The notes under the pieces were generated by a model that was not told the DNA's origin, did not search any database, and saw only the letters and a list, made by a program, of their open reading frames with translations. Source: Deltaproteobacteria bacterium (GTDB lineage: Bacteria > Myxococcota_A > UBA9160 > PR03). From it: DNA of 64,000 nt. Numbering within the stretch: position 1 is the stretch's first letter; each line of letters begins with the position of its first letter. This document shows positions 30,212-39,602 of this stretch, piece by piece. The position numbers and the translations under genes are program-made. Location: NCBI GenBank assembly GCA_035063765.1, contig JAPSFT010000020.1, positions 1-64,000 of the forward strand, in the 5' to 3' direction.

Positions 30212-31456
30212 ATGGACTTCGACGACACCCCGCAGGAGGCTGCCTTCCGCGCCAAGGCGCGCGCCTGGCTCGAGCAGCACGCGAAGCCGCGCGACCCGAA
30301 CGCGATCGCCCCGAACCTGCTCGGCGAGCGCGAGAGCGCCGACGTGATCCAGAAGGCGAAGGACTGGCAGGCCACCAAGTTCGACGCGGGCTGGGCGTGC
30401 CTCACCTGGCCGAAGGAGTACGGCGGGCAGGGCCTCGGGCGCCTCGAGGCCGTGGTGTGGGGCCAGGAGGAGGGGAAGTTCGAGACCCCGCCGAACATCT
30501 ACGGGATCGGCCACGGCATGCTCGGGCCGACCCTGATGGCGCACGGCAGCGAGGAGCAGAAGCAGAAGTACATCCGCGAGATGGCGCGCGGCCAGGTGGT
30601 CTGGTGCCAGCTCTTCAGCGAGCCCGATGCCGGCAGCGACCTGGCGGGCCTGCGCACGAGCGCCGTGAAGGACGGCGGCGACTGGGTGCTCAACGGCCAG
30701 AAGATCTGGAGCACCGGGGCGCACTTCTGCGACTGGGGCATGATCGTGACGCGCACCGACCCGAACGCCGCGAAGCACGCCGGCCTCACCTACTTCATCG
30801 TCGACATGCACGCGAAGGGCGTCGAGGTGCGCCCGATCAAGCAGATCAACGGCGGCTCGGGCTTCAACGAGGTGTTCTTCACCGACGTGCGCGTTCCCGA
30901 CGCGAACCGCCTGGGCGCGGTCGGCGACGGCTGGCGCGTCGCGATCACGACGCTCATGAACGAGCGCGTCGCGATCGGCGCGGGCGGCGGCGCAGGGCGC
31001 TATCGCGACCTGATCAAGCTCGCGCAGGAGACGCGCCGCAACGGACGCCCGGCGATCGAGGACTCGGCGGTGCGCCAGAAGCTGGCCGACTTCTACATCC
31101 AGTCGAAGGGTCTCCAGTTCACGAGCTACCGCACGCTCTCGGCGCTCTCGCGCGGCGCCACGCCCGGGCCGGAGGGGGCGATCGGCAAGGCGGTGGGCGC
31201 GCCGATGGGCCAGGAGATGGCGCACTTCGCGCTCGAGCTGCAGGGCGCGATGGGCGCCGTCGCCGACGCGGCGATCGCGCCGCAGGACGCGGTCTGGCAG
31301 GAGATGTACCTGGGCACCCCGGGCCTGCGCATCGCGGGCGGCACCGACGAGATCCTGAAGAACATCATCGCCGAGCGCGTGCTGCGGCTGCCGCCCGAGA
31401 TCCGCGTCGACAAGGACCGGCCGTTCCGCGAGATCCCGACCGGATCGGTGAAGTAG
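30212..31456 (+). CDS. acyl-CoA dehydrogenase, FadE29-like
   Basis: A 414-residue acyl-CoA dehydrogenase starting at ATG 30212. Seen: FDAGWACLTWPKEYGGQGLG, WCQLFSEPDAGSDLAGLRTS (FAD/substrate loop), WVLNGQKIWSTGAHFCDWGM, VRPIKQINGGSGFNEVFFTD, and C-terminal PGLRIAGGTDEILKNIIAER. The INGGSGFNEVFF block is characteristic of the subfamily found in steroid-side-chain and complex-lipid degradation. The preceding gene encodes a divergent partner, so an alpha2beta2 enzyme is plausible. The longer in-frame upstream reading through the previous gene is a GC-rich artefact and is not used. Confidence 0.9.
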   Translation: MDFDDTPQEAAFRAKARAWLEQHAKPRDPNAIAPNLLGERESADVIQKAKDWQATKFDAGWACLTWPKEYGGQGLGRLEAVVWGQEEGKFETPPNIYGIGHGMLGPTLMAHGSEEQKQKYIREMARGQVVWCQLFSEPDAGSDLAGLRTSAVKDGGDWVLNGQKIWSTGAHFCDWGMIVTRTDPNAAKHAGLTYFIVDMHAKGVEVRPIKQINGGSGFNEVFFTDVRVPDANRLGAVGDGWRVAITTLMNERVAIGAGGGAGRYRDLIKLAQETRRNGRPAIEDSAVRQKLADFYIQSKGLQFTSYRTLSALSRGATPGPEGAIGKAVGAPMGQEMAHFALELQGAMGAVADAAIAPQDAVWQEMYLGTPGLRIAGGTDEILKNIIAERVLRLPPEIRVDKDRPFREIPTGSVK

Positions 31457-31470
31457 GGGCCCAGGGCGGA

Positions 31471-32895
31471 TCAGCGGCAGGGCTTGCCGAGCGCGGCCAG
31501 CACGTCGCAGGCGGCGGGCAACAGGGCGGGCTCCGCGCCGGGCGCCTCGCTGCGCGCCTGTGCCGCTTCGAAGAACGCGGCGCGCGCCGCACGCGCGTCG
31601 CCGCTCGCGGCGATCGCGAGCGCCAGGACTCCGCTTGCGTGCGCGGCCGCGAGGCTGGTTCCGTCGCCGAAGGCGAAGCCCTCGCCCGGCACCGTCGAGA
31701 GCACCTCGACGCCGGGCGCGAGGATCTCGACCGACGCGCCGCGGTTGCCGCGCGCGTAGGGCGCGCCGTTGCGGTCGACGGCGCCGACCCCGATCACCGA
31801 GGGGTAGGCGGCCGGATAGCGGGGCTCCGCGACCCCCTCGTTGCCGGCCGCGGCGACCACCACCACACCGAGCTCGTCCATGCGGTCCATCGCCTTGCGC
31901 AGCAGGCGGTTCGGAGGGCCCACCAGCGACAGGTTGAGGAGCTGCGCGCCCTGGCCCCAGGCGACGTCGACCCCGCGCAGGAGCTCGAAGAGCCGGCACT
32001 CGTCGGCGGCGCTCGCGCCGCGCGGGCGGCAGACGGGGATCCCGACCAGCTCCGCTCCCGGCGCGATCCCCGCGATGCCGAAGCCGTTGCTTGCGACCGC
32101 GCGCACGACGCCGGCCATCAAGGTGCCGTGGGTGCCGGGGCCCGCGGGAGCCGGGGCGCCGGGCGCGTCGGACAGCGGCGCGAGACGGACGCCTGCGAGA
32201 TCGCGATGGCCCACGTCCGGCGCGGAGTCGAGGAGGGCCACGCGCGCACCGCGCCCGTCGCTCGTCGGCCAGGCGCGCTCGGCGCCGCTCCGGTCGAGGC
32301 CCCACTGGAGGGGGCGATAGGGGTCGTCACCCGCCGCCGGCGCGAGCGGACGCAGCTCTGCCTGCGCGCCGGTGTAGACGTCGTTGGGAACCGTCACCGC
32401 CTCGCCGGGGGCATCCGTCACCAGCGCGGCCGGATCGAGCCCGGGTGGCCCCGACACGTGCACGACCGTCGCGCACAGGATCGGGCTGAAGTACGAGCTC
32501 GCGACCGAGGCGCCCGGCGCCAGCTCGAAGTCGGTCGGGACCTTGCCGTCGGGCCCCTTCGGCAGGACCAGCAGGACCTCGCTCGGGGGCTCTGCCGCCG
32601 GCTCTGCGACGGGACGCGTGGCCGGCAGCGGGACGATTGCGCCCGGGCCCCCGCTGCGTTCGCCGGTGCTCGAGGGCTGGACGCCAGGCTCCCTGGGAGC
32701 CGCTGCGAGGGCCCCGGTGTCGTCGCGAGCCGCGGTGGGGTCCGCGGCGTCCTCGGGCGGGATCGGCCCGCACCCGTCGGGCGCGCCGGCCGCCGCCGGT
32801 GAGGACGCCGCCGGTACGTGCGGCGCCCCACGCGCGCCGGGGCTCGCGGCCGAGGCGCTTCCGGCGAGGAGCAGCGCCAGCAGCGCTGCTCCCAT
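31471..32895 (-). CDS. secreted subtilisin-like (S8) serine protease
   Basis: A 474-residue exported protease starting at ATG 32895. Residues 1-17 form a signal peptide (GAALLALLLAGSASAAS). A Pro/Ala-rich linker runs to ~105. A propeptide-like segment follows at ~105-174, ending LVTDAPGEAVTVPNDVY. The S8 catalytic domain covers ~190-450 with Asp223 (VALLDSAPD), His256 (GPGTHGTLMAGVV), oxyanion Asn352 (VVAAAGNEG) and Ser414 (FGDGTSLAAAHASGVLAL). Four cysteines (C141, C289, C300 and one near the C-terminus) could form disulfides. It is last in a minus-strand series with an ECF sigma factor and a membrane anti-sigma factor whose periplasmic domain also looks like an S8 propeptide. Confidence 0.93.
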   Translation of the reverse strand: MGAALLALLLAGSASAASPGARGAPHVPAASSPAAAGAPDGCGPIPPEDAADPTAARDDTGALAAAPREPGVQPSSTGERSGGPGAIVPLPATRPVAEPAAEPPSEVLLVLPKGPDGKVPTDFELAPGASVASSYFSPILCATVVHVSGPPGLDPAALVTDAPGEAVTVPNDVYTGAQAELRPLAPAAGDDPYRPLQWGLDRSGAERAWPTSDGRGARVALLDSAPDVGHRDLAGVRLAPLSDAPGAPAPAGPGTHGTLMAGVVRAVASNGFGIAGIAPGAELVGIPVCRPRGASAADECRLFELLRGVDVAWGQGAQLLNLSLVGPPNRLLRKAMDRMDELGVVVVAAAGNEGVAEPRYPAAYPSVIGVGAVDRNGAPYARGNRGASVEILAPGVEVLSTVPGEGFAFGDGTSLAAAHASGVLALAIAASGDARAARAAFFEAAQARSEAPGAEPALLPAACDVLAALGKPCR

Positions 32896-32950
32896 GGATC
32901 CACCGGCGCACGCGCGCCGGCGCGTCCGCCCCGCCCCCGTGCGCCGCGCG

Positions 32951-33637
32951 CTAGGGCCGCAACGGTTCGGCGAAGGACGCGACACCCGTCCCCTCGGCGC
33001 GCAGCAACGCCGCCGCCGCGCTCGCGTCCGCGCCCGGCGGCAGCTCGACCTGGTAGCGCCCGAGCGGGGACGGTCCCGAGACCAGCTCGGCGCCGAGCCC
33101 GCGCAGCGAAGTCTGGATGCGTTCGGCCGTGGCGTCGCTGCGGAAGACCACGTCGAGCGCGACCGCGCCCTCGGCCGCGAGCGGGGTCTCGCCGGCCACC
33201 GTGTAGACCGGCTCGCCGCCCAGCCAATCGCGCCCGACCCAGCCGCCGAGCCCGCCCGCCAGCACCGCCAGGCCCACGCTGGCGGCGATCTGCACGCCGC
33301 TCCTCATCCACACCGAACGGCGTCGGCGTACCGGCGCCTCGAGCCGGGGTGCGGGCGCGTGCACCGACAGGGGCGCCCGGGAGGCGGCGAGCGGCGCCGA
33401 CTCGATCCCGTCCGCCTCGACCAGCGCGAGCACGCGGGCGAAGAGCTGCTCGGGGTCGGCGGGCGTCACGGACGCTTCGGCGCGGCCGGCGAGCACCGCG
33501 ATCTCCTCCCGGCACGCCGCACACACCGCCGCGTGTGCCTCGACCGCACCGCGCTGCGCGTCGCCCAGGGCTTCGGGGTACCAGGCGATCCATTCGAGGA
33601 TCTCGGCCGGGCAGGTGTCGGGCGAACGGTCCGTCAT
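32951..33637 (-). CDS. membrane anti-sigma factor with zinc-finger and propeptide-like periplasmic domain
   Basis: A 228-residue protein. The N-terminal cytoplasmic domain has the anti-sigma zinc-finger pattern His35-x3-Cys39-x2-Cys42 (EAHAAVCAACREEI), with Cys9 as the probable fourth ligand. One TM helix lies at ~113-135 (GVQIAASVGLAVLAGGLGGW). The periplasmic domain (~155-228) reads LRGLGAELVSGPSPLGRYQV, then ELPPGADASAAAALLRAE and GVASFAEPLRP. This matches the fold pattern of subtilase (I9 / fervidolysin-type) propeptides, including the xxxAEP ending. The gene overlaps the ECF sigma stop by four bases. Known: such anti-sigmas hold the sigma factor at the membrane. The propeptide likeness is my own reading. 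Confidence 0.85.
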   Translation of the reverse strand: MTDRSPDTCPAEILEWIAWYPEALGDAQRGAVEAHAAVCAACREEIAVLAGRAEASVTPADPEQLFARVLALVEADGIESAPLAASRAPLSVHAPAPRLEAPVRRRRSVWMRSGVQIAASVGLAVLAGGLGGWVGRDWLGGEPVYTVAGETPLAAEGAVALDVVFRSDATAERIQTSLRGLGAELVSGPSPLGRYQVELPPGADASAAAALLRAEGTGVASFAEPLRP

Positions 33638-34248
33638 CGGCCGGCGTCCTCCACCCCGCGCCGCTCGAGGCCACGGCGCAGCCGGGCGCGGGCCCGGGAC
33701 ACGCGGGTCTTGACCGTGCCCTCCGGGACGCCGAGCCGGCGCGCGATCTCGTCGTAGGCGAGGCCTTCGACCACCGCGAGCTCGAGCAGCTCGCGCTGCT
33801 CGCCCGGCATCTCGTCGAGGGCGCGATGGACGATCCGCAGCTCGTCGCGGGCGAGCAGGCGCCCGTCGGCGTCGCCGTCATCGGCGACCCGGTGCAGCGA
33901 CTCGACCTTGGTCGGTACCACCGCGGCGCGCTTCAGGCGCGAGCGGTCGCGATGCGCGCCGGTCGCCTTGAAGTTCGCGATCCCGAAGATCCAGGTGGAA
34001 GGCCGCGAGGCGCCCTGGAAGCGGTCGATGCTGCGCCAGACCTCGAAGAACACGTCGGCCACCACCTCTTCGGCGAGCCCGGGATCGTGGAGCCTGCGCA
34101 TGACGAAGTGGAACATCCTCCCCTGGTAGCGCTGGAACAGCGCCCGCAGGGCGCCGCTGTCGCGCTCGCGGATGCGCGCCAGGAGGACCTCGTCGCTCGC
34201 GACGGACGGGTCCGCCCCGGGATGCACGGAGAGCCGGCGTTCGCTCAT
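33634..34248 (-). CDS. ECF-type RNA polymerase sigma factor
   Basis: A 204-residue extracytoplasmic-function sigma factor with ATG at 34248. Region 2: LRALFQRYQGRMFHFVMRRL, HDPGLAEEVVADVFFEVWRS and WIFGIANFKATGAHR. A short variable linker follows. Region 4: LDEMPGEQRELLELAVVEGL, YDEIARRLGVPEGTVKTRVS and RARARLRRGL. Regions 1 and 3 are absent, as expected. The start of the anti-sigma gene overlaps its stop (ATGA), the standard sigma/anti-sigma pairing. The protease gene follows. The regulon is unknown; the adjacent proline-rich and TPR/beta-barrel genes on the same strand are candidates. Confidence 0.95.
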   Translation of the reverse strand: MSERRLSVHPGADPSVASDEVLLARIRERDSGALRALFQRYQGRMFHFVMRRLHDPGLAEEVVADVFFEVWRSIDRFQGASRPSTWIFGIANFKATGAHRDRSRLKRAAVVPTKVESLHRVADDGDADGRLLARDELRIVHRALDEMPGEQRELLELAVVEGLAYDEIARRLGVPEGTVKTRVSRARARLRRGLERRGVEDAGR

Positions 34249-34311: not shown

Positions 34312-34812
34312 CTACGGCAATCCGGGCAGGGTCCCCGGTCCGACCGGCGGCTCGACCACCGTCGGAGGCGACGGGGCGGGAGGGGCCGGCGGCAGCGCCG
34401 GTGGCGGGGGCGGCGCGACGGCCGGGGGACCCGCCGGGCTCGGAGCGGCGGGCGGGGGCTGCACCGGAGGGCTCCCGGCGACCTGCGTCGGCTCCGCCGG
34501 CCTGCCGCACGGGGTGCCCGGGTCCGCGCACGAGCCCGGGCCCGGGAAGAACTCGGCCTCGGGCGGAGCCGCACCGCCCCCGCCGGGCCGGGCCGCGACG
34601 TCGGCCGGATCGAAGCGGCTTCGGGCCGGGGCCGGTGAGGATGCGCAGGCACCCCCGGCGCAGGGGTCGCGGACCAGGCTCTCGGCGCAGGGCCCGGCCG
34701 GCGCCACCTGCCAGCGGCGGGGACCCGCGGCCCCTGCGGCGGCGGCGAGCGACAGGCCGAACACGAGCGCTCCGACCAGCGCGAGACGGGATTGGAACGG
34801 TGCGGGCTGCAT
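34312..34812 (-). CDS. secreted proline-rich low-complexity protein
   Basis: A 166-residue protein starting at ATG 34812. A signal peptide (FQSRLALVGALVFGLSLAAA, cleavage after AGA) is followed by a segment with six cysteines in three pairs (PCAESLVRDPCAGGACASS, then GSCADPGTPCG), which could form disulfides. The C-terminal half is almost pure Pro/Ala/Gly (PPPPPALPPAPPAPSPP). No enzymatic domain is visible. Proline-rich tails of this kind often span peptidoglycan or act as flexible spacers. Low-complexity sequence makes any assignment weak. It lies 63 bases upstream of the ECF sigma gene and just downstream of a 14-bp minisatellite. Confidence 0.65.
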   Translation of the reverse strand: MQPAPFQSRLALVGALVFGLSLAAAAGAAGPRRWQVAPAGPCAESLVRDPCAGGACASSPAPARSRFDPADVAARPGGGGAAPPEAEFFPGPGSCADPGTPCGRPAEPTQVAGSPPVQPPPAAPSPAGPPAVAPPPPPALPPAPPAPSPPTVVEPPVGPGTLPGLP

Positions 34813-35002: not shown

Positions 35003-36601
35003 TCAGTTTCCCCAGGCCCACGTCAGATACGCGCCGAACACCTGCCGACGATAGTCGAAGACCTCGACGTTCGAATGGTTCCGCTCCCAGCGCCAGCCGG
35101 CCGACGCGACGAGCCCGCGGCCGATCGGCCGGGCGAGGGCCAACCCGACCCCGGTGTAGCGCTCGTCGCGGTCGTCGTCGCCGAGCCCGTACTCGACGTC
35201 GTAGATCGGCGCCGGCGGGTCCGGGAAGGTGCTCGGGTGGTCGAAGGGCCGCCAGGTGACGACGCCCGAGGCGTCGAGGTCGAGCTGCCAGGGCAGGGCG
35301 ACCTGGACGCCGGCGGCCAGCGAGTGCGCCCGGAACGAGTACTCGCTGCCCCGCGCGTCGAAGCGCTCGAACTCGTAGCCGAGCCGGAACGTGCTGCGCA
35401 GGAGCGGCACCCCGATCGAATGGCGGGCGCCGGCCACCCAGGAGGATCCGTCGCGCTCGCGCTCGTGCCGCTCGTCCAGGCCGGGGGGGCCGCAGATCGG
35501 GATCCCCCCGCACGAAGCGCCGGGGGTCCCCGGGCCGCCCGGTACGTCGTCCGAGTGCACGAAGTACTCGTCGACCCGGAAGCGCGCGTAGAGCTCGCTC
35601 GCGCCGCGCGCCTCCCAGGAGCGCAGCAGGGTCAGGCTCGTGCGTCCGGTCGCGAAGAACGAGTCCTCGTCGACCCACGCGTAGCCGCCGTCGACACTGC
35701 CGCGCAGGGTGGTGGCCTCGTCGAGGCGGCGATCGAGCCAGAGCGCGAGCACGGGGTAGTGCGAGTCGAAGCTGGTGATGTCGACGTAGGCCGTGCCGCT
35801 GTAGCCGAGCAGCGCGCCGGCCGACCAATGCGGTGTGCGAAACAGCTCCGCACCCGCCTCGCCGGACCAGAGGCCCCGCCAGTCGCCGGCGTTCGAGATG
35901 TCCTCCGGGAGCGGTGCGCCTGCGCCCTGCAGGACCGCGTTGTCGTCGTATTCGACTCCCACCCGCAGGCGCACCCAGCGCCGCAGCCGGGCGAGGGCGA
36001 GCGCGCTGCGCAGCCGCCCGGCCTCGGCCGCCCAGCTCGTCCCGGGCCATTCCTCGACGACGCGCGCGAGCGCCGCCTCGGCCCGTTCCCTCTCCCGCGC
36101 CCGGCTCCAGGCGAGGCCCGCGTAGTAGGACGCGACCGGCTCGACGGTGCGCGGATCGCGAGCCCGCGCCGCCTCGAGCGTCTCGGCCGCGGCGGCGTCG
36201 TGCTGCGCCTCGAGCAGCAGCAGGCCCCGGTAGAGGAGGACCTCCGCATGCTCCTCGCCGAGCGCCGCGGCCGCCGTAGCGAGCTCGGCGCGCGCGCCGG
36301 CCAGGTCGCCCTGGTGATAGAGCGCGATCGCGAGCCGCAGGTGCGCCTCGCCGAGGCCGGGCTCGCGCGCGAGCGCCTCGCGCAGCAGGGCGGCGGCTTC
36401 GTCGTAGCGGCGCACCTGGCTCGCGCAGGTGCCGCCGACCACCAGGAGCCCTGCATCCACGGTGCCGGTAGCCCGCAGCTCGGAGATCGCATCGAGCGCC
36501 GCGGCGCAGCGGCCCTCGGCGGCCAGCCGCTCGGCCTGCGCGCGCAGGACGTGCTGGTCGGCGGCAGGCTCGCTGCCGAGGGCCGAGCGGCCGGCAAGCA
36601 C
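35003..36601 (-). CDS. TPR-plus-beta-barrel outer-membrane protein
   Basis: At least 532 residues. Residues ~10-200 are TPR-like helical repeats (AAALLREALAREPGLGEAHL, LRLAIALYHQGDLAGARAEL, LLLLEAQHDAAAAETLEAAR). From ~210 to the end is an amphipathic beta-barrel with aromatic-rich strands (WVRLRVGVEYDDNAVLQGAG ... FGAYLTWAWGN) ending in a polar residue rather than Phe. The organisation resembles SLAM-like or polysaccharide-secretion TPR-barrel proteins. The coordinates use the only conventional start (GTG 36601), but an excellent signal peptide continues upstream in frame (RARRIRLRAAPLLGAGLVLV), with GGGAGG at 36682-36687 spaced 8 bases before an ATC at 36673. The true start is therefore probably non-canonical or hidden by a base error. 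Confidence 0.75.
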   Translation of the reverse strand: MLAGRSALGSEPAADQHVLRAQAERLAAEGRCAAALDAISELRATGTVDAGLLVVGGTCASQVRRYDEAAALLREALAREPGLGEAHLRLAIALYHQGDLAGARAELATAAAALGEEHAEVLLYRGLLLLEAQHDAAAAETLEAARARDPRTVEPVASYYAGLAWSRARERERAEAALARVVEEWPGTSWAAEAGRLRSALALARLRRWVRLRVGVEYDDNAVLQGAGAPLPEDISNAGDWRGLWSGEAGAELFRTPHWSAGALLGYSGTAYVDITSFDSHYPVLALWLDRRLDEATTLRGSVDGGYAWVDEDSFFATGRTSLTLLRSWEARGASELYARFRVDEYFVHSDDVPGGPGTPGASCGGIPICGPPGLDERHERERDGSSWVAGARHSIGVPLLRSTFRLGYEFERFDARGSEYSFRAHSLAAGVQVALPWQLDLDASGVVTWRPFDHPSTFPDPPAPIYDVEYGLGDDDRDERYTGVGLALARPIGRGLVASAGWRWERNHSNVEVFDYRRQVFGAYLTWAWGN

Positions 36602-36944: not shown

Positions 36945-39602
36945 TCAGGACGGCTCCGGCTCGGCGGCGGGCCCGGTCGTGTCGGCAGCGGGCGGTCCCG
37001 CAGCGCCGTCGAGCCCGGCGCGCACCCGATCCGCGAGGTCGTCGGGCCCGAAGGGCTTTGCCAGCAGCTGCGTCCGCTCGGGCCAGCCGCCGTCCGGGAC
37101 CGCGTCGACCCGGCCCGTCATGACGACGGCGGGCAGCCCCGGCGCGGCCGCACGCATCGCGCGCAGCGCCTCGAGCCCGCTGCGCCGTGGCATCGAGACG
37201 TCGAGCAGGGCCAGCGCGATCTCGGCGCGATGCGCCTCGAAGAGCGCAACGGCTGCCTCGCCGTCCTCGGCCTCGAGCACGCGAAAGCCGCGCCGCTCGA
37301 GGGTGAGGCGCGCCAGCCGCCGGATCGCGGGCTCGTCTTCGGCGAGGAGCACGGTCTCGCCGCCGCCTCGCTCGGCCGGCGCCGGCGCCCCCGCGCCCGC
37401 GGATGCCCCTGCGGCCGCCGGCCAGACGAGCCGGAACGCGGCCCCCTGGCCAGGCGCGCTCTCGACCTCCACCGTGGCGCCGTGGGCCTCGGCGAGCGCG
37501 TAGACGATCGCGAGCCCGAGCCCGGTGCCACGACCCGCGGGCTTGGTCGTGAAGAACGGGTCGAAGATCTGCTCGAGCGTGCGTGCGTCCATCCCGGGGC
37601 CGCTGTCGCGCACCTCGATCACGACGCGCGGAGGCGCACCGGGTGCAGCCTCGAGGTTGCGCGCGGCGAGTACGATCGTCCCACGCGCGCCGACCGCGTC
37701 GCGTGCGTTCCCGGCCAGGTTCATGAGGACGCGGCGTAGCTGCACGGGATCGGCCCGCACCGGCCAGGGCCCGGGCGCGATCGCGAGCTCGACGCGCACC
37801 TCGGGCACCAGCGTGGCGCGCAGGGCGCTCTCGACCTCGCGTAGCGCCTTCTCGAGGTCGACGGCACGCGGCTCGGGCCGGGTGGGGCGCGCGAAGTCGA
37901 GCAGGCCGCTCGTGAGCTCGGCGCAGTGCTCCGCGGCGCGCTCGACCTCGAGCAATGCAGGCGGCGGCTCCGGCCCCGCGTCCTCGAGCAGGGCGCGGGC
38001 ATGGGCCAGGATCACGGCGAGCTGGCCGTTGAAATCGTGGGCGACGCCGCCGGCCAGGGTCCCGAGCAGCTCCATGCGCTGGGCGCGCTGGAGGCGCTCG
38101 GCGAGGCGTCGCTCGGCGGTGACGTCGCGGCTCACCCAGAGCTGGCCGAGCCGCTCGCCCTCCTCCGCGCGCACCTCCCGCAAGGTGAGCTCGAGCACGC
38201 GCTCCTCGGGGGTCACGAAGTGCAGCTCGAAGCTCTCGACGTCGCCGGGATCCCAGGCGAAGCGGGCCAGCAGCCGGCGCGCCTCGCCCGGCGCGAGCCG
38301 GGAGGCGTAGTGCTCGAAGGAGGCGCGCACCGTGCGTCCGATCCAGACCTCCGGATCGAGGCCGAACTGCTCGGCGCCGATCCGGGAGAGCGTGGTGATC
38401 CGGCTGTCGCGGTCGACGAGGCAGATGCCCGCTGGCACCGCTTCGATCAGTGCGCGCAGGGTCCGGCGCTCGGCGTCGAGCGCCGCCCGCTCGCGGGCGC
38501 GCGCGGCGAGTACGCGCGCGTGCACGAGCACCCGCGTGATCTCCTGCGCGAGCCTCGCGAGCAGCCGCCGGTCGGACGCGTCGAAGTGCCGGCGCGGGCC
38601 GACCGCGGCGAAGATCGTGCCGAGGACGCTGCCGTCCCCGGTGCGCAGCGGCACCACCGCCGCCTCCCCGATCCGCAGCCGCTCGGCCCGGCGGCGCAGG
38701 GTCTCGCCCTCGCGGCGCATGTCGAGGATCGTGACCGGGTCCTCACCGGCGAGGGCGCGGGCGAGGACCGGGTCGTCGATCGGGACCGGCCGCTGGTAGC
38801 TCGGGGCGTCCACCCGGCGCAGCCGTGCCGCCACCTCGAAGTGGCGGCCCTCGTCGTCGAGGAGCCAGACGCCGAAGCCGTCGAGGCTCGCGAGCAGGGC
38901 CACCTCGCTCACGATCGACTCGAGGGCCGCGCGCGCGTCGCGCGGCTCGCTCGCGGCGAGCCGGGCGACGCGGTAGAGCAGGTCGCGCTCGTCGCCGAGG
39001 CGGCGCTCGCGCGCGCGGGCCCGCTCGACGAAGGCGCCGATCTGGAGCATCGCCGCCACCAGCGAGGTCCCCATCCAGGCGAGCACGAGCGGCAGCGTGG
39101 GGAGCGCGAGCGCCCGCGCCAGCGGGTCCGCGGCGTTGAGCAGGGCCAGCAGCACGAGCGTGGGGCCGAGCATCTGCTCGGGAAACGAGCGCGGCCGCTC
39201 GAAGGCCGCGTGCCAGGCGAGGCCGGCAGCCCCGAGCGTGAGCGGGAGCTCGCAGAGGATCTCGACCGAGATCGCGAGGTCGGGCCGGCCTCCCTCGAGG
39301 AAGGCGGCCCGTGCGGCGCCGATCAGGAGGCCCAGCGCGATCGGCCAGGACGCGAAGCGGCCGCGGTGGAAGGCGAAGGAGCCGGCCAGCAGCAGGCCCG
39401 GGAACAGCGAGCCGACGAGCGGCGAGAGCAGCAGGGCCAGGCGCGAGGGCTCGTCGAGGGTCGAGATCGCGCCCGCCAGGTACGCCGCGAGCCAGGCGCC
39501 GCCCCAGGCGGTCGCCGCCGGACCGTCGGACAGCCGCCGCAGGTACAGGAAGGCCAGCACCGCCAACCCGCCGAGGGGCGCGACGAGCACGAACTCGCTC
39601 AA
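36945..39602 (-). CDS. hybrid sensor histidine kinase with 7TM, GAF, PAS and receiver domains
   Basis: An 885-residue signalling protein. Residues 1-190 hold about seven hydrophobic helices. A GAF domain covers ~210-360 (ALLASLDGFGVWLLDDEGRH) and a PAS domain ~385-500 (IEAVPAGICLVDRDSRITTL). The dimerisation/phosphoacceptor helix contains His522 (LAGGVAHDFNGQLAVILAHA). The ATPase domain has N-box LMNLAGNARDAVG, G1 DSGPGMD, FDPFFTTKPAGRGTGLGLAI. The C-terminal receiver has the acidic pocket AEDEP and phospho-acceptor Asp801 (LALLDVSMPRRSG), with Thr and Lys at VVMTG and LLAKPFG. NtrB-like AHDFN chemistry is typical of deltaproteobacterial hybrids. No cognate DNA-binding regulator is adjacent. 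Ligand unknown. Confidence 0.93.
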   Translation of the reverse strand: MSEFVLVAPLGGLAVLAFLYLRRLSDGPAATAWGGAWLAAYLAGAISTLDEPSRLALLLSPLVGSLFPGLLLAGSFAFHRGRFASWPIALGLLIGAARAAFLEGGRPDLAISVEILCELPLTLGAAGLAWHAAFERPRSFPEQMLGPTLVLLALLNAADPLARALALPTLPLVLAWMGTSLVAAMLQIGAFVERARARERRLGDERDLLYRVARLAASEPRDARAALESIVSEVALLASLDGFGVWLLDDEGRHFEVAARLRRVDAPSYQRPVPIDDPVLARALAGEDPVTILDMRREGETLRRRAERLRIGEAAVVPLRTGDGSVLGTIFAAVGPRRHFDASDRRLLARLAQEITRVLVHARVLAARARERAALDAERRTLRALIEAVPAGICLVDRDSRITTLSRIGAEQFGLDPEVWIGRTVRASFEHYASRLAPGEARRLLARFAWDPGDVESFELHFVTPEERVLELTLREVRAEEGERLGQLWVSRDVTAERRLAERLQRAQRMELLGTLAGGVAHDFNGQLAVILAHARALLEDAGPEPPPALLEVERAAEHCAELTSGLLDFARPTRPEPRAVDLEKALREVESALRATLVPEVRVELAIAPGPWPVRADPVQLRRVLMNLAGNARDAVGARGTIVLAARNLEAAPGAPPRVVIEVRDSGPGMDARTLEQIFDPFFTTKPAGRGTGLGLAIVYALAEAHGATVEVESAPGQGAAFRLVWPAAAGASAGAGAPAPAERGGGETVLLAEDEPAIRRLARLTLERRGFRVLEAEDGEAAVALFEAHRAEIALALLDVSMPRRSGLEALRAMRAAAPGLPAVVMTGRVDAVPDGGWPERTQLLAKPFGPDDLADRVRAGLDGAAGPPAADTTGPAAEPEPS

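Follow-up and report, generated by a model that had tools for sequence, protein, structure and literature searches.

Which signal is read by a membrane anti-sigma factor whose outer domain resembles the propeptide of the secreted protease encoded beside it? The question is raised by a unit of three genes on the minus strand of a 64,000-nucleotide stretch of Deltaproteobacteria bacterium DNA (assembly GCA_035063765.1, contig JAPSFT010000020.1, positions 1 to 64,000; hereafter the window), in which the gene of an extracytoplasmic function (ECF) sigma factor is followed by that of an anti-sigma factor (ASF) and then by that of a secreted S8 protease. The C-terminal ~70 residues of the ASF are homologous, as judged from sequence profiles, to S8 prodomains of the fervidolysin type, and a short motif is common to the linker of the ASF and to the junction between the prodomain and the mature part of the protease. 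We propose that the mature protease docks on this prodomain mimic and, acting as a site-1 protease, cuts the linker, after which RseP would free the sigma factor, a model on which our own judgement is evenly balanced.

33634..34248, minus strand: ECF sigma factor gene, 204 aa (Sigma70_r2, 1.1e-13; Sigma70_r4_2, 4.4e-19; sigma70-ECF superfamily, 8.8e-28)
32951..33637, minus strand: ASF gene, 228 aa, with a zinc-finger domain (cytoplasmic), one transmembrane helix, a linker and a prodomain-like C-terminal domain
31471..32895, minus strand: secreted S8 protease gene, 474 aa, start ATG at 32895 (Peptidase_S8, PF00082, 1.3e-31)

A preliminary description of this DNA had drawn attention to the compactness of the unit, and the four-base overlap that it gave for the sigma and ASF genes is located at 33634-33637, with 55 bases on the common strand between the ASF and protease genes. 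The peptides on which it relied are likewise all present, namely LRGLGAELVSGPSPLGRYQV, PPGADASAAAALLRAE and the terminal GVASFAEPLRP of the ASF, and VTVPNDVY of the protease. The protease gene is the last of the unit, since the gene beyond it, acyl-CoA dehydrogenase-like and ending at 31456, lies on the opposite strand.

The anti-sigma factor ends in a homologue of S8 prodomains

32954..33166, minus strand: prodomain-like C-terminal domain (ASF residues 158-228, ending at about P5), matching PF22148 (E 0.0024) and, in structure, subtilisin propeptides

The sole Pfam family matched by the isolated ASF domain is PF22148, the N-terminal prodomain of fervidolysin. The copy in the window reaches 18.6 bits (E 0.0024), below the curated cut-off of 21; the same family is matched by 12 of 28 ASF relatives, with a best value of 2.1e-5, and the ASF of one alphaproteobacterial locus (L205) exceeds the cut-off with 25.8 bits. 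The match with this profile is consequently beyond chance, and weak in the window copy. The preliminary description had recognised in the periplasmic domain the pattern of S8 propeptides of the I9 or fervidolysin type; it is the fervidolysin type only that the domain resembles, since the I9 family (PF05922) was not among the Pfam matches of the isolated domain.

The comparison was also made in the reverse direction. A scan with the protease alignment had mostly retrieved unrelated S8 genes, and the 4,798 reading frames around these genes served as an unbiased set on which the ASF-domain profile was run: the top matches were the C-terminus of another anti-sigma factor (L073), followed by S8 prodomains. 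A broader profile (A7), applied to 229 gammaproteobacterial genomes, gave 17 matches, every one of which was either an ASF C-terminus (14) or an S8 prodomain (3), and the profile search of 199 Acidobacteriota genomes gave six, comprising two ASFs, three S8 prodomains and one unrelated frame. A phylum-wide search outside the class of the host bacterium returned a single weak match, in a long frame. No matches came from a single-protein scan of the genome contigs with the ASF, and no meaningful match from a sequence search of solved structures with the ASF-domain profile; the alignment of the whole ASF was too diverged for scanning.

A prodomain proper lies N-terminal to the S8 catalytic domain in the same polypeptide and bears a cleavable C-terminal tail. 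The domain described here is a homologue of such a prodomain rather than an instance of it, because it forms the C-terminus of the ASF and ends at about P5.

The domain appears to stop short of the active-site tail

The AlphaFold2 model of the ASF domain consists of a strand (159-165), a helix (171-181), two strands (184-187 and 195-199), a second helix (205-212) and a last strand (220-225), with pLDDT values of 92-98. Its structural matches include the propeptide of Tk-subtilisin (Z 6.6, rmsd 2.2-2.5), the prodomain of PCSK1 (Z 6.6) and the prosegment of BPN' (Z 6.1). Unrelated ferredoxin-like domains (RRM, ACT, EF1-beta) tie with these propeptides, so that structure alone would not have settled the kinship.

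In the structural alignment, the last residue of the ASF (228) falls on residue 73 of the BPN' prosegment and on residue 65 of the Tk propeptide. As these propeptides end at residues 77 and 69, the ASF domain terminates at about P5; most of the 62 ASF domains likewise terminate at most five residues from the conserved Glu column. The column is of interest in relation to the docking of propeptides, in which Glu69 and Asp71 of BPN' form a helix-capping acidic pair (PMC6993865). Glu224 of the ASF corresponds to BPN' Glu69 by end-point offset (VIA) and is invariant in 23 zinc-finger relatives, a Glu being found at the capping column in 35 of the 62 ASF domains, while the second capping position (that of BPN' Asp71) is neither acidic nor conserved. 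Judging from the alignment, the body of the docking surface seems to have been kept and the active-site tail dropped, and the domain looks like an exosite-docking mimic that would leave the active site open. The preliminary description had taken the ASF for a presenter of a propeptide mimic; the prodomain homology in this idea stands, and the mimicry of an inhibitory tail does not, as the domain stops at about P5.

The same domain could instead serve as an inhibitory anchor in a negative feedback. The ASF domain would bind the protease as a prodomain-like inhibitor and hold it at the membrane, and the signal would arise from a free ASF domain, or from protease being pulled off by its substrates, through a change in the conformation of the ASF or its exposure to another site-1 protease. 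Such a role would agree with the stand-alone prodomain-like proteins known to date, which are inhibitors (SUB1-ProM and examples from yeast and plants; PMC6993865), with the retention of the helix-capping Glu and with the case of PfSUB1, in which inhibition does not require the propeptide tail (PMC6993865). However, the ASF domain is without the residues that would fill S4-S1, and an inhibitory anchor does not predict that the ASF linker and the protease junction should have a motif in common. We consider this explanation unlikely.

The cognate protease retains its own prodomain

32845..32895, minus strand: signal peptide of the protease (MGAALLALLLAGSASAA), from sequence and hydropathy
32377..32589, minus strand: the protease's own prodomain (residues 103-173), from a structure model that matches pro-Tk-subtilisin over residues 103-471 (Z 39.5)

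The protease has the Asp/His/Ser triad and the oxyanion Asn of Peptidase S8 in a subtilase fold, as indicated by the matches to PF00082 and pro-Tk-subtilisin, and the residues concerned (D223, H256, S414 and N352) are invariant in 25 relatives. The pro-region contains two cysteines (C42 and C141) that do not vary among 16 aligned cognate proteases and perhaps form a disulfide that holds this region together. The preliminary description had noted a propeptide-like segment in the protease, and the structure model shows a predicted prodomain of the enzyme at residues 103-173. This prodomain has no Pfam prodomain match, and at the position expected for the first prodomain helix the model shows none.

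The prodomains of S8 proteases serve as intramolecular chaperones. It can be envisaged, from this general property of the family, that the ASF domain acts as a foldase in trans, an intermolecular chaperone through which the folding of the protease would be coupled to the release of sigma without any cleavage. The degenerate state of the protease's own prodomain would be in keeping with such a need. Against it, the protease does keep a prodomain, predicted to be docked as in pro-Tk-subtilisin, and the only member of the family without a prodomain is also without an ASF, and we regard this alternative as very improbable.

A motif is shared by the linker and the protease junction

33191..33205, minus strand: juxtamembrane linker motif YTVAG (ASF residues 145-149; consensus in the family Y-x-T-A-[SA]), where site-1 cleavage is proposed, from a leave-one-out search with the protease junction
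32362..32376, minus strand: motif YTGAQ at the pro/mature junction of the protease (residues 174-178; consensus Y-x-T-A-A), directly after the prodomain

The stretch of the ASF between the membrane helix and the C-terminal domain is variable except for the short conserved motif listed above, and Y174 of the protease is invariant across the family. The likeness of the two motifs was first spotted by eye and then tested, a leave-one-out scoring matrix being built for each five-residue segment of the protease (379 segments) and scanned over each whole ASF. Segment 174-178 came out at the top of the 379, its best match falling in the ASF linker at 19 of 21 loci, compared with 2 of 21 for the median segment and 11 of 21 for the best one not overlapping it. 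When positions were ranked within each ASF, the linker was placed first in 21 of 24, and at five separate alphaproteobacterial loci the junction segment was again first (4 of 5 loci, best of 382 segments). Matched pairs of ASF and protease are also more alike than shuffled pairs when phylogeny is ignored (p=0.012; p=0.005 for the third position). From their place after the last prodomain strand, residues 174-178 would be the true autoprocessing site of the protease, and the presence of a junction-like motif in the ASF linker, as a feature of sequence, favours cleavage of the linker by the cognate protease.

Anti-sigma factors with this domain are linked to S8 genes in several lineages

The preliminary description had suggested counting how often the three-gene order recurs, and it is seen in most relatives. 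Within the taxonomic order of the host, ASF relatives stand in the arrangement sigma-ASF-S8 on one strand almost without exception. All seven alphaproteobacterial loci have an S8 gene linked to the ASF (located upstream in a Methylocapsa plasmid), nine gammaproteobacterial loci have an arrangement of the sigma-ASF-S8 type, and two linked loci occur in Acidobacteriota, one of them with a divergent S8 gene. Across the host phylum, Alpha- and Gammaproteobacteria, an S8 gene lies beside the ASF at 47 of the 57 loci with enough flanking sequence to be assessed, a count in which L039 is taken as linked and from which six further loci at contig edges were left out. The linkage holds in the other direction as well: cognate-clade proteases, present in 26 genomes, are linked to an ASF wherever the contig allows, with one exception (genome G010; L209, 5445-6425, minus strand, reverse-complement coordinates), in which the prodomain region is entirely missing. 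A chance neighbourhood was rejected on the grounds that the 4.4-Mb host genome has only five S8 genes and that the linkage is two-way. As grounds on which its idea should be given up, the preliminary description had named an unrelated fold, or homologous ASFs never linked to an S8 protease; neither was found, the domain being a homologue of S8 prodomains and ASFs of this kind being S8-linked in several deep lineages.

It may also be that an S8 prodomain was recruited long ago as a ferredoxin-like domain that senses a different ligand, and that the protease is a member of the regulon, linked for the sake of co-expression. The structural ties among ferredoxin-like folds would allow this, as would the 10 ASFs among the 57 that carry the domain and are not beside an S8 gene (L050, L062, L179, L230, L233, L061, L183-L185 and L180), some of which, forming a group, have small secreted proteins as neighbours, while one lies next to a caspase-family gene. 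Such a sensor is difficult to reconcile with the near-exclusive two-way linkage in the zinc-finger clade, with the persistence of the linkage across Alpha- and Gammaproteobacteria and Acidobacteriota, with the linkage of L049 to a non-orthologous S8 protease and with the motif common to the linker and the protease junction. It is, in our estimation, an improbable explanation.

Individual loci depart from the common arrangement in several ways. At L049 (3107-6068, plus strand) the zinc-finger ASF is present and the cognate S8 gene is replaced by a large S8 gene of another clade 1.3 kb downstream, an apparent replacement of the partner. At L073 (4243-4830, plus strand; Rhizobiales) the ASF and S8 genes are separated by an inserted gene for a small secreted protein rich in glycine and proline. 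One genus (g35) has a paralogous ASF with the prodomain-like domain, downstream of which three small secreted proteins, conserved as a set, are encoded instead of an S8 protease (L061, L183-L185), and at a related locus (L186) only the first of them precedes the contig end; none of these proteins has a confident Pfam match, and one contains an N-x-N-G-rich stretch resembling functional amyloid repeats. At L180 (5322-6195, plus strand) the domain-bearing ASF is followed by a caspase-family gene (Peptidase_C14, 2.9e-39), which suggests an exchange of partners between protease classes. The S8 proteases of the Acidobacteriota modules (L252, L253) begin with lipobox-like signal peptides (...TAGGSGC and ...LSQVAC), which suggest that they may be membrane-anchored.

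A proposed mechanism of signalling

33512..33535, minus strand: zinc-binding motif HxxxCxxC (HAAVCAAC, ASF residues 35-42), from the sequence
33224..33292, minus strand: predicted transmembrane segment (ASF residues 116-138), the top hydropathy window beginning at residue 117

The N-terminal part of the ASF has the features of a Class I (ZAS) anti-sigma factor, that is, an HxxxCxxC motif and an adjoining ECF sigma gene. The window copy gives a sub-threshold match to zf-HC2 (E 0.016), a family matched by all 28 ASF relatives at E<=1 (best 5.4e-9); H35, C39 and C42 are invariant in the 23 zinc-finger relatives, and a sigma gene lies upstream of the ASF at nearly all loci with the prodomain-like domain. 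On these features of sequence, the ASF is proposed to hold and inhibit its cognate sigma factor through the zinc-finger domain. The C-terminus should be periplasmic, because the protein has a single hydrophobic segment (residues ~116-138), at which the structure model places a helix (124-138) with low confidence.

We propose that the zinc-finger domain holds the sigma factor in the cytoplasm, and that the co-expressed S8 protease is exported and sheds its own prodomain, so that its prodomain-binding surface becomes free and may dock on the ASF domain. Since the ASF domain extends no further than about P5, no tail would fill the active site, and the juxtamembrane linker could enter it and be cut at the site resembling the protease's own junction, the protease thus playing the part of site-1 protease. 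With the periplasmic domain lost, the remaining stub of the ASF would be a substrate of RseP, and sigma would be released. The amount of free mature protease would then be the signal, and a retained prodomain, inhibitors or competing substrates would keep the system off. The site-2 protease RseP is encoded in the genome (TIGR00054, 339.2 bits joined, against a cut-off of 147.55). The preliminary description had seen in the module a departure from the usual site-1/site-2 scheme; with RseP in the genome, nothing suggests that the scheme has been abandoned, and it is more likely that the S8 enzyme replaces DegS as the site-1 protease.

Several results weigh against this mechanism. The score of the window ASF under the PF22148 cut-off and the structural ties with other ferredoxin-like domains have been given above, as have the 10 domain-bearing ASFs without an S8 neighbour, and the ASF domain shows no detectable similarity to the cognate protease's own prodomain when the two are compared, profile against profile, through the alignment of the whole protease. 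The motif match is not reproduced in 13 loci of the gamma type, where the best segment lay elsewhere; the covariation test takes no account of phylogeny, and the leave-one-out procedure keeps relatives in. Finally, a tail-less mimic could still inhibit, because the tail is dispensable in PfSUB1 (PMC6993865).

It can further be hypothesised that the module represents a widespread and undescribed class of signalling, in which a secreted subtilase would be both the signal and the site-1 protease. The prodomain would have been copied onto the ASF as a docking site and the junction motif placed in its stalk, and free mature protease would be read out in an autoregulatory, self-amplifying loop. We put the chances of this broader proposal somewhat below even.

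Relation to known systems

The nearest known concept is RsiV, the membrane anti-sigma factor of sigma-V in Bacillus subtilis, for which lysozyme is the ligand and signal peptidase makes the ensuing cut (PMC4183432, PMC7593790). As proposed here from sequence, the outer domain of the ASF would likewise bind a secreted enzyme directly, leading to site-1 cleavage and intramembrane proteolysis. The lysozyme bound by RsiV, however, comes from the host, and signal peptidase performs the site-1 cleavage there, whereas the presumed ligand here is a protease of the cell itself, encoded in the module, that would also act as the site-1 protease, and the outer domain has its origin in the prodomain of the ligand's enzyme class. 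An anti-sigma factor with one membrane helix, subject to site-1 and then RseP cleavage, is also the scheme of RseA/DegS/RseP (sigma-E) and MucA/AlgW, and the module can be filed as a variant of ECF signalling by regulated intramembrane proteolysis. A 2020 review names DegS, DegP, SipS/SipT and Prc as site-1 proteases; no S8 subtilase is among them, nor does the review describe any of them as docking by means of a prodomain mimic (PMC7593790).

The use of a prodomain fold in trans on an S8 protease, proposed here from the sequence, has a precedent in the stand-alone subtilisin propeptide-like proteins, such as SUB1-ProM of Plasmodium, whose gene adjoins subtilase genes, MIC5 of Toxoplasma, the yeast proteinase B inhibitor and SPI-1 of Arabidopsis (PMC6993865). 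Those proteins are soluble inhibitors, whereas the present domain is the C-terminus of a membrane ASF and is without most of the active-site tail. Linkage of an ECF sigma gene to a subtilase gene is found in the ECF54 group as well, whose neighbours also include carboxypeptidase and CHAT genes; in contrast to the present module, no anti-sigma factor accompanies ECF54, for which it has been proposed that the sigma factor is itself degraded (PMC8999054). A full-text literature search, which did not cover the main ECF reclassification paper and hence any mention of the neighbourhood that it may contain, returned no description of an anti-sigma factor that bears a domain of the subtilase-prodomain kind.

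If the proposed mechanism is true, subtilases would join the few enzymes that serve as site-1 proteases in ECF sigma systems, and the ligand, the cleavage site and the entry point to the regulon could be predicted from sequence for many uncharacterised anti-sigma factors. It would also offer a clear evolutionary route from enzyme prodomain to receptor. The model can be tested with a handful of purified proteins.

Neighbouring genes

34312..34812, minus strand: gene of a proline-rich protein (small, secreted, 166 aa) that may belong to the operon, separated from the downstream sigma gene by 63 bases

A rough search of the DNA preceding the sigma genes revealed no consistent ECF-type promoter. 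The proline-rich protein has no Pfam match; at a locus of the same genus (L036) the equivalent place is taken by a homologue (E 1.7e-28), and at L037 and L041 sigma is preceded by different proline-rich proteins. It is possible that the protein is a substrate of the protease or a member of the regulon. Further upstream on the minus strand lie the genes of a TPR/beta-barrel-like secreted protein (35003-36601) and of a hybrid histidine kinase (36945-39602).

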